From Deltaproteobacteria bacterium RIFOXYA12_FULL_61_11 (GTDB lineage: Bacteria > Bdellovibrionota_F > JAHFAK01 > YA12-FULL-61-11), in NCBI GenBank assembly GCA_001799195.1, contig MGSU01000341.1:1-7120 (forward strand): DNA of 7,120 bases. The letters are read 5' to 3'. The notes beneath the pieces were generated by a model. It was given only the letters and a program-made list of their open reading frames with translations. It did no database searches and had not been told where the DNA came from. Both the position numbers and the translations under genes were made by a program. Shown piece by piece: positions 1,398-4,044 of the stretch (positions within the stretch are counted from its first letter, which is position 1; every line of letters starts with the position of its first letter).

Positions 1398-2891
1398 TCA
1401 CCCCACGTTCACCCGATCCTCGTGGCTGAAACCGCAGTTGAGGACGAGGTGGCAGTTGCGCGAGCAGGTCGCCAGCGCGGCGGTGGCCTCTTGCCACCGC
1501 GCAGAGGTGAAGAGGTTTTCCAGACCGGGGTCGCCGGCATGCCCGAGGGGTTCGGTTCCTTCGAGGAAGGGGCACAGGACCAGGGTGCCGTCGCAGTTGA
1601 CGTTGAGAAAATCCTGACCGAGCGGACAACCGGGACGGGTCCGCACATAGGTGGTCGGGTCCCGGTAATAACGGGCGAAGGTCCGGAGCTGCGCGACCGG
1701 GTTGGCAATTTTCCCCCTGGCCGCGCGGGCGGTGATCACGCCCTCCAGGACCTTCTCGACCGCGCCCGGGTCCTGGGGCCAGAGATGCTGGTAGGGACCG
1801 CGGAACCACGCGGGGTCAGGAGTACTTTCGTGCGGGGGAATCAAGGCCAGCAGGTTGAGCCCATGGAGGTGGTCGTGCTCTTGGGTGAAGGCCACGAGCC
1901 GCGGTATTTCCCCCAGGTTGGCGGCCATCAGGGTCGGTTGCAGCTCGAGTCGCAGCGGTGCTCCGGCGGCGGCCAGGGCTGCGATCGCTTCCAGGGCTCG
2001 AGCATGGGCGCCCGGAACTCCGCGCAACCGATCATGGATGACCGGGTCCATGGCATCGAGCGACAATGCGACGTGGTGCAGCCCGGCACCGATCAGTTTT
2101 TCCAGAACGTTGCCCCGCAACAGGTAGCCGTTGGTGCAGATGGCGGTCGTCATCCCACGGGCGGTAGCCGCGGCGACCAGCTCGGTGAGGCCAGGGTAGA
2201 GCAGTGGTTCTGCACCGGCGAAATTGATTGTGGTCCCGGGCGCGAGGGGAAGGACCTCGAGCAATTTCAGCCACGCTCGGTGCGGGAGGTGAGCCTCGGG
2301 AGGAACTTGGTTACGCCACTTGAAGCACATGGCGCAACGGAAGGTGCAATTCTCGGTCAGACTCAGGTTGACCAACCGCGGGCCCTCTTCCACGAGTGGC
2401 CGCAACCAGTCGGTCTCGAGGTCGTACCGTTGCATCGCCGAAGCCAGGATTCGAGCGATCGCCGGGGGTAGGTGCCGAGGGAGAGGCGCCCCCAGTTCCA
2501 CCGCCGCGGCCAACAGTCCGGCCTCGCTGTCCGGAGTAGGAGGTAGGGCTTCGAAGAGCCGGCGAGCTGGATCGGCGCGACGCAAACTCAACAATAACCA
2601 AGCCATATCCCTGGCCAGGTGAAGAGGAGGGGAAGCCTCGCCGTGCTCGCGCAAGGCTCGAATGCGCTGGGTCACTACTCCGACGATCGAGGGGAGGTCG
2701 AACCTAGGCGGCGGGGGTTCGGGCAGGATCAACCGGACATAGTAGTCGACGAGTTCGTGGGGGCGCCTCTGTCGCAACAGCTCGAGCCCGTGGGAGAGGT
2801 GGTGCGCAGATACCCGTTCCCCGGGGTCGGTTCCCGGAGGGGTTGATCGTTTTTTTTTACCTCGAAGGGATACCCGGCCTCGAAATAACAA
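1398..2891 (-). CDS. Radical SAM/SPASM protein 2, probably reached by frameshift from protein 1
   Basis: This is a radical SAM enzyme, predicted to cleave S-adenosylmethionine at a [4Fe-4S] cluster; substrate unknown. Numbering is from TTG 2891. The cluster motif C182-x3-C186-x2-C189 lies in ENCTFRCAMCFKW, followed by the GGE-like FAGAEP (224-229), TNGYLL (253-258) and SLDAMDP (277-283). The C-terminal SPASM-like part has C422-x12-G-x4-C440 and C476-x3-C480-x5-C486; the last Cys of the canonical SPASM set is absent. About 165 residues precede the SAM domain, predicted mostly helical and of no recognised family. TTG 2891 is the only start before the N-terminal region. It has no Shine-Dalgarno and lies inside gene 1. 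Protein-like sequence begins about where the A run ends (2849). I therefore infer translation by -1 shifting from protein 1, contributing residues 15-497. A truncated start at GTG 2675 is a weaker alternative. Confidence 0.88.
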   Translation of the reverse strand: MLFRGRVSLRGKKKRSTPPGTDPGERVSAHHLSHGLELLRQRRPHELVDYYVRLILPEPPPPRFDLPSIVGVVTQRIRALREHGEASPPLHLARDMAWLLLSLRRADPARRLFEALPPTPDSEAGLLAAAVELGAPLPRHLPPAIARILASAMQRYDLETDWLRPLVEEGPRLVNLSLTENCTFRCAMCFKWRNQVPPEAHLPHRAWLKLLEVLPLAPGTTINFAGAEPLLYPGLTELVAAATARGMTTAICTNGYLLRGNVLEKLIGAGLHHVALSLDAMDPVIHDRLRGVPGAHARALEAIAALAAAGAPLRLELQPTLMAANLGEIPRLVAFTQEHDHLHGLNLLALIPPHESTPDPAWFRGPYQHLWPQDPGAVEKVLEGVITARAARGKIANPVAQLRTFARYYRDPTTYVRTRPGCPLGQDFLNVNCDGTLVLCPFLEGTEPLGHAGDPGLENLFTSARWQEATAALATCSRNCHLVLNCGFSHEDRVNVG

Positions 2892-3976
2892 TTGAGCAGG
2901 AAGTGGCAGTTGTCCTCACAGTTCCGGATCGAAGTCCGGGCCTTCTCGGCCGCGGCCGAATACCACAACTCCCGGACGTCGGTGCCCTCTTCTGTGATGT
3001 TACCCAGGATGTCCCACTTGAAGCAGCAGAAGACGTCGCCGACCGCGCTGACATGCAGGGCCGTGTCCATGTTGCAGGTCGAGGTTTTGACGAAGCTCTC
3101 CGGCTCGCGGAAGTACTGCCGCTGAGCCTCGAGCTGGGGCAGCGTGTTGGAAATGAGAAAGCCTTCCCGACGGAATTCTTTCAGTTTGTTGAAGATAGCA
3201 TCGAGTCGGGCCTGATCGCGGGGCCACAGGTCATGGCACTCGTCGCGGTCGTACCAGGCCTTGTCGAAGCGTTCCTCGCTGTTGTTCGGCTGCATCACTG
3301 CCATGAACAAGATGTGGCGCAGGCGGGGATCGGTCTTGACCCAGTTGTAGAGGTCGAGAATCCCGGGCAGGGTCGGTTCCATGATGATGGAGCAGATCCC
3401 GATGATGAAATCGTCATCGCGGCGGTGGCGGTGAAGGTGGTCGATGGCAGCCAAGACCCTTTTATGGGTACCCTCGACCCCGCGGAAGGTGTCGTGGATC
3501 TTGGGGTCGAGGCTGTCGACAGAGAGGATCATTTTCGAGAGCCCGGAGGCGGCAATGCGGCGGGCCAGTTCGTCGTCGATCAACCAGCCATTCGAAGCGA
3601 TGGTGGTGGTGAAACCGAGGTCCGCGGCGTGACGGACCAGCTCCAGCAAGCCGGGCAGCATCAGGGCCTCGCCTCCCCCGAAATCGATCTCGAAATCCTC
3701 GTCGGTGAGGTCGCGGAGCTGGGAGATGACCCGTTTCCATTGCTCAAGGGTCGGTTTCCGCTGATCCCGGACATAGAGGTCGGATTTCCATTTATTGCAC
3801 ATGCGGCACTTGAGTACGCAGGTATCGACTACGCCCAGGCAACAAAAACCGGGTTTGCGGATGGAGGATGTATCCACCCCCGCCGGTTTGAGGCCGGAGA
3901 GGTTCTCGAAACCGGCGCTGATACGGGGCCTCAAGCGAGAGAGGCGGTCACGGAGTTCGTGCGTGAAGGAAGACAT
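2729..3976 (-). CDS. Radical SAM/SPASM protein 1
   Basis: This is a radical SAM enzyme with a SPASM-like C-terminus, a class that usually modifies peptides or proteins; substrate unknown. Counting from ATG 3976 (415 residues), the SAM-binding cluster is C53-x3-C57-x2-C60 (DTCVLKCRMCNKW). GGGEA follows at 100-104, SNGWL at 128-132 and SVDSLDP at 152-158. Auxiliary-cluster cysteines are C301-x11-G-x4-C318 and C353-x3-C357-x5-C363. It is homologous to protein 2 along the whole SAM/SPASM part (shared WPxDx, VxTxxxC, NCHxxLNC). GAGG lies 6 nt before ATG 3976, favouring it over ATG 3979 and ATG 4021. The last 40 codons in this frame (after Lys375) look non-coding and are the shadow of protein 2. 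The genuine protein either shifts at the A run or ends with this nonsense tail at the TGA at 2729. Confidence 0.92.
   Translation of the reverse strand: MSSFTHELRDRLSRLRPRISAGFENLSGLKPAGVDTSSIRKPGFCCLGVVDTCVLKCRMCNKWKSDLYVRDQRKPTLEQWKRVISQLRDLTDEDFEIDFGGGEALMLPGLLELVRHAADLGFTTTIASNGWLIDDELARRIAASGLSKMILSVDSLDPKIHDTFRGVEGTHKRVLAAIDHLHRHRRDDDFIIGICSIIMEPTLPGILDLYNWVKTDPRLRHILFMAVMQPNNSEERFDKAWYDRDECHDLWPRDQARLDAIFNKLKEFRREGFLISNTLPQLEAQRQYFREPESFVKTSTCNMDTALHVSAVGDVFCCFKWDILGNITEEGTDVRELWYSAAAEKARTSIRNCEDNCHFLLNCYFEAGYPFEVKKNDQPLREPTPGNGYLRTTSPTGSSCCDRGAPTNSSTTMSG
2819..2839 (-). other. Hairpin downstream of the slippery run
   Basis: On the minus strand CTCCGGG (2839-2833) pairs with CCCGGGG (2825-2819): seven pairs, one of them U-G, around a 7-base loop. 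The spacer from the heptamer's C (2849) to the stem is 9 nt. It shortens to 5 nt if the outer ACCC/GGGT pairs (2843-2840 with 2815-2812) also form. This is within the distance range of stimulatory structures at -1 frameshift sites. GC-rich sequence makes chance hairpins common, so the evidence is the position, not the stem alone. Confidence 0.45.
2849..2858 (-). promoter_or_regulatory. A9 slippery run with A AAA AAC heptamer (candidate frameshift site)
   Basis: The coding strand has nine consecutive A (2858-2850) followed by C. In the frame of radical SAM gene 1 the codons are GTA AAA AAA AAC, so the last six A plus C form A AAA AAC, a classical X XXY YYZ slippery heptamer. A -1 shift puts the ribosome on CGA (2849-2847), exactly the frame of gene 2. 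Insertion of one A by RNA polymerase slippage gives the same fusion. GAGG lies directly upstream (2865-2862 region) and could act as an internal SD, although it is closer than usual. A run of nine A is striking in such a GC-rich gene. Function is inferred, not shown. Confidence 0.55.
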
Positions 3977-3982
3977 CATTTT

Positions 3983-3986
3983 CCTC
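3983..3986 (-). promoter_or_regulatory. Shine-Dalgarno deciding the start of radical SAM protein 1
   Basis: GAGG on the minus strand lies 6 nt before ATG 3976 and only 3 nt before ATG 3979. ATG 4021 has no good SD. The SD can pair in a CTCGG/CCGAG stem with 4002-4006, which might moderate initiation, but that is speculative. Confidence 0.6.
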
Positions 3987-4044
3987 GGGCTGATAGTCTT
4001 GCCGAGCCCGCGCCGTGCCATGAGGCGCTCTCGGGCAAGGACGG

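Follow-up and report, generated by a model that had tools for sequence, protein, structure and literature searches.

Slippage at homopolymeric runs is known from a small number of bacterial genes. In Thermus dnaX, slippage at nine A yields about 50% short product, and in Shigella mxiE the longer product arises by slippage (both described in PMC1088944). Nine or ten A suffice for slippage by RNA polymerase in several bacteria (PMC1088944). In addition, Antonov et al. 2013 described a dnaX class in which recoding is used to make tau, nine such genes having ten A (PMC3711429). Here, we analyze a stretch of 7,120 nucleotides (henceforth termed the window) from a draft genome (4.64 Mb, 342 contigs), in which it is located on contig C341; the collection contains one further genome of the phylum. 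Two radical SAM/SPASM genes overlap in the window at a run of nine A. We consider it about an even chance that these genes are one split coding unit, from which slippage, most simply transcriptional, gives a single and a double enzyme.

Overlap of two radical SAM/SPASM genes at nine consecutive A

The features of the locus, all on the minus strand, are as follows.

2729..4021, minus strand: gene 1, radical SAM/SPASM protein (Pfam, alignment, 54% identity to an Omnitrophota protein)
2850..2858, minus strand: nine consecutive A, proposed slip site from gene 1 to gene 2 (-1); one of 12 A/T runs of at least nine in the genome
2818..2840, minus strand: 7-bp GC hairpin, 9 nt past the A run; present, no better than shuffles
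2391..2849, minus strand: N-terminal extension of gene 2, about 153 residues, all-helical by prediction, no Pfam match
1398..2390, minus strand: radical SAM/SPASM domain of gene 2 with its stop codon (PF04055, 4.2e-21)

Nine T at positions 2850-2858 of the plus strand correspond to nine A on the coding strand. Because the run reads GTA AAA AAA AAC in the frame of gene 1 and GGT AAA AAA AAA CGA in that of gene 2, gene 2 lies in the -1 frame, and frame reading thereby confirmed the initial annotation, which had placed A AAA AAC in the frame of gene 1. Gene 1 ends with a stop codon at 2731-2729, and the frame of gene 2, which overlaps it, is open from 2891 to a stop at 1398. Two start candidates were found for gene 1, ATG4021 and ATG3979; the latter has GAGGA upstream and is the likely start. 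Counted from ATG3979, a fusion comprises 376 + 483 = 859 residues, the length given earlier (390 + 483 from ATG4021).

The assignment of both proteins to the radical SAM/SPASM family also held. The two radical SAM parts match PF04055 with 3.5e-20 and 4.2e-21, both products contain the CxxxCxxC core with cysteines that are invariant in the alignment, and SPASM-type C-terminal cysteines are conserved in both (invariant C408, C426, C462, C466 and C472 in alignment numbering), although the Pfam SPASM model itself scores in paralogues and relatives only. In an alignment with 14 paralogous proteins, gene 1 is seen to be complete as far as its last SPASM-type cysteines, which precede the A run, and keeping the gene 1 frame adds a tail of 40 residues after the run. 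The gene 1 protein is 54% identical to an Omnitrophota protein, and the pair is among many paralogous genes of the genome. A fold search with the AlphaFold model of the gene 2 radical SAM part retrieved BlsE (Z 26.3) as well as DesII, SuiB, SkfB, MoaA and PqqE, with 15-22% identity to the closest solved structures.

Two further observations were made. On contig C280, a one-frame protein of 1107 residues carries two radical SAM domains (L048 2-3322). At 3-1270 on the minus strand of the window, and likewise at L062 and L064, a TIGR02147 regulator precedes a lipoprotein-like protein whose GGTxxGNP repeats take the forms TGGTNVGNP and TGGTHVGNP in the window. The two may constitute a regulator-lipoprotein module; at the other loci read, it shows no link with radical SAM genes.

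At the frame junction, A AAA AAC is present as previously claimed, but it is only one of two slip-prone heptamers in the gene 1 frame, the other being A AAA AAA. A AAA AAA is the better slippery heptamer in bacteria. With both sequences in place, ribosomal slippage is possible. The hairpin that had been described with a 9-nt spacer exists; its stability does not exceed that of dinucleotide shuffles (z -0.38 and 0.01), and no stimulatory hairpin better than chance was thus detected past the run.

Where gene 2 begins

Coding character had been said to switch exactly at the run, which codon usage did not bear out: the best switch to the gene 2 frame is at 2799 (plausible range 2844-2781), and the A run scores 5.7 nats lower. 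By codon usage, a switch some 50 nt past the A run is weakly favored, and since this optimum lies off the run, codon usage alone is no proof of the junction. Relative to a frame change placed at the run, the scores of TTG2732, GTG2675 and ATG2606 as starts are worse by 6, 18 and 34 nats, respectively, and that of TTG2777 is better by about one nat. The first ATG or GTG of the gene 2 frame is GTG2675, with coding character beginning at least 120 nt earlier, and none of the TTG candidates (2777, 2732 and 2891) has a clear Shine-Dalgarno sequence. AlphaFold predicts a helical N-terminal extension for the 483 residues after the run, with pLDDT of about 60-73 across most of the first 100. TTG2777, the nearest usable start, lies downstream of the beginning of the first predicted helix (residues 9-26), and initiation at this codon would, according to the model, remove this helix. 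Gene 2 has no convincing independent start, TTG2777 being a possible one.

GTDB contigs searched with gene 2 yielded no relative, and those searched with the closest paralogue pair yielded six loci at which the tandem genes are separate. An orthologous gene 1/gene 2 pair was not found in the GTDB contig searches, and the distant tandem relatives lack an A run at their junctions. In each of the 17 tandem pairs compared (Omnitrophota, archaea and contig C227), an ATG 14-50 residues ahead of CxxxCxxC serves the second gene as its own start, which makes a tandem arrangement the normal condition. The initial annotation had named a separate second gene with its own start and no A run as the arrangement that speaks against a fusion. 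This holds in part, for such an arrangement is seen in these distant relatives, from which gene 2 differs in having no convincing start of its own and a long extension, its coding reaching about 150 residues upstream against the 14-50 of the compared pairs. Compared with the linker of C139, the closest paralogue, that of gene 2 showed no similarity above shuffles, so that no second example of the present fusion was found. In Omnitrophota and one archaeal genome, three to five or even more radical SAM/SPASM genes follow one another in tandem arrays (L154-L158).

Long A/T runs across the genome

A/T runs of at least nine number just 12 in 4.64 Mb, and each was inspected in context. Five lie inside genes of the organism, namely the window pair, mnmE (C309), dnaX (C26) and genes on C38 and C76; the runs on C60, C247, C291, C297 and C313 are extragenic or sit at gene ends, and an A11 run on C287 is at a possible gene start. 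Among the five genic runs, three are located at a -1 junction (window pair A9, mnmE A9, dnaX A10), while the reading frame is unbroken across those of C38 (A10) and C76 (A9). The three are short by exactly one A, which fits slippage and also fits undercounting. The remaining run is on C303, a low-GC contig that encodes a gyrB-like protein with third-position GC of 0.14 (L083) and is probably a contaminant of the draft genome.

In mnmE (L084 1975-3317), which is present in a single copy, the A9 run cuts the TrmE_N domain, of which positions 1-35 precede the run and 39-116 follow it in the -1 frame. In dnaX (L075 610-2360), positions 1-376 of PRK14965, a gamma/tau family model, precede the A10 run and 424-573 follow in the -1 frame (E 1.4e-9). 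The first frame of dnaX ends within two codons of the run, giving a gamma-like short product, and the tau C-terminal part is found in the -1 frame only. This layout, with A10 and tau in the -1 frame, fits that of Antonov et al. 2013 and is of a known but little-studied kind. In G001, a class relative and the nearest genome compared, mnmE and dnaX are both continuous.

Shorter runs and runs of other bases were examined as well. Genic A/T runs of eight with both sides scorable are in frame; the A8 site L090, at first flagged as a shift, turned out to comprise two genes, of which the second has an ATG and a ribosome site of its own. Scored genic G/C runs are in frame in 10 of 11 cases, the flagged one being a G10 site (L141). 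A frame-switch scan for other start-less junctions, which took in 419 kb, made two further calls on C151, both next to N runs (L060), and a third at L089, where there is no long run. Contig C148 contains a CRISPR-like array (L110 1325-2235) with 14 copies, about 66 nt apart, of the repeat GTTTCAATCCACGCCCCCGCGGGGGGGGCGAC, in which G8 is kept in 13 copies and G9 occurs in one.

Directly before the run, the Shine-Dalgarno-like sequence AGGG or GAGG is present in all three shifted genes and in neither of the two in-frame genes (n=3). As the known -1 stimulator, however, it would stand too close to the run. Downstream of the run, the shifted trio has little else in common.

Proposed slippage, its alternatives and comparison with known systems

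Our preferred reading rests on what is observed: the run, the two frames, the two complete domains, the similarly split dnaX and mnmE, and a gene 2 that lacks a convincing start. By default, the nine A would be read in the gene 1 frame to give a single radical SAM/SPASM protein with the 40-residue tail. An extra A introduced into the transcript by slipping RNA polymerase would lead translation into the gene 2 frame, appending a helical linker followed by another complete radical SAM/SPASM domain, and part of the transcripts would thus encode a double enzyme of about 859 residues with two active sites. A ribosomal -1 slip would be a less likely route into the same frame. The transcriptional route is favored because the hairpin is not significant, the shifted trio is little alike downstream, and RNA polymerase can already slip at nine or ten A in several bacteria. 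That a single and a double enzyme are made is probable because dnaX and mnmE of the same genome are split alike at A runs; we infer that slippage occurs, mostly during transcription, and that both products are used. The analogy to dnaX by which slippage was originally suggested has gained from the genome's own dnaX (A10), from mnmE (A9) and from a gene 2 with no good start of its own, and has been weakened by the hairpin, the codon switch and the relatives. More tentatively, the lineage might routinely use slippage at runs of at least nine A (dnaX, mnmE and the double radical SAM enzyme), with the ratio of one-center to two-center enzyme set by the run.

Alternatively, the locus may consist of two overlapping genes, gene 2 starting within the tail of gene 1 at a TTG (2777, 2732 or 2891), in which case the A run would be coincidental. 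Relatives, and likewise C227, as a rule carry tandem radical SAM/SPASM genes that are separate and overlap only briefly; codon usage is equally compatible with a start near 2780 and with a switch at the run, and a TTGA overlap is available at the gene 1 stop (2732-2729). We nevertheless regard this explanation as rather unlikely: the TTG candidates lack a clear Shine-Dalgarno site, relatives use ATG and not TTG, a start at TTG2777 would truncate a predicted helix, and the chance of an A/T run of at least nine falling at the gene 1/gene 2 junction is about 2e-4.

The remaining explanations concern the A count itself. An ordinary fused gene with ten A in the genome or in most cells, from which the draft assembly dropped one, would account for three breaks of one sign and for mnmE, a gene hard to imagine broken that is likewise one A short in the same direction, and the assembly is a draft in 342 contigs. 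Against undercounting stand the intact frames at C38 (A10), C76 (A9), the genic A8 runs and 10 of the 11 scored genic G/C runs, together with the identical G8 in 13 of 14 CRISPR-like repeats. Furthermore, the dnaX A10 matches a recoded class that is already known, and this speaks for its A count being right, and N runs of varied length suggest short-read scaffolds, in which miscalls would be rarer. A plain A10 gene therefore appears unlikely to us. A real one-base deletion, leaving a fused gene that is decaying or switched on and off via DNA run length, seems very improbable: long A runs do mutate easily and the pair is one of many paralogues, yet catalytic cysteines and open frames are kept in both domains, and the normally important mnmE is broken in the same way.

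If genes 1 and 2 do form one coding unit read by slippage, one locus would supply a radical SAM enzyme in single form and in fused double form, and the pair would join the short list of bacterial genes that make two useful products by slippage. The lineage would then hold several slippage-dependent genes at A runs, including the tRNA-modification gene mnmE. As enzymes, the proteins of genes 1 and 2 share the radical SAM fold and a C-terminal cysteine-rich region with BlsE, SkfB, SuiB, PqqE and anSME, but at about 15-22% identity, with two complete domains in series and a substrate that is not predictable. Shigella mxiE likewise has overlapping frames joined by slippage into a longer protein; there, the run consists of U, the product is a transcription activator and slippage was experimentally shown. 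With the dnaX class of Antonov et al., the pair has in common overlapping frames, a -1 shift, a long A run and a longer product that requires the slip. It differs in being another gene, in that its parts are complete enzymes, and in that no conserved set of run-bearing homologues is known. Thermus thermophilus dnaX has the same nine A and two products, but in reversed roles: reading without a slip leads to the long product in Thermus and to the short one in the window pair.
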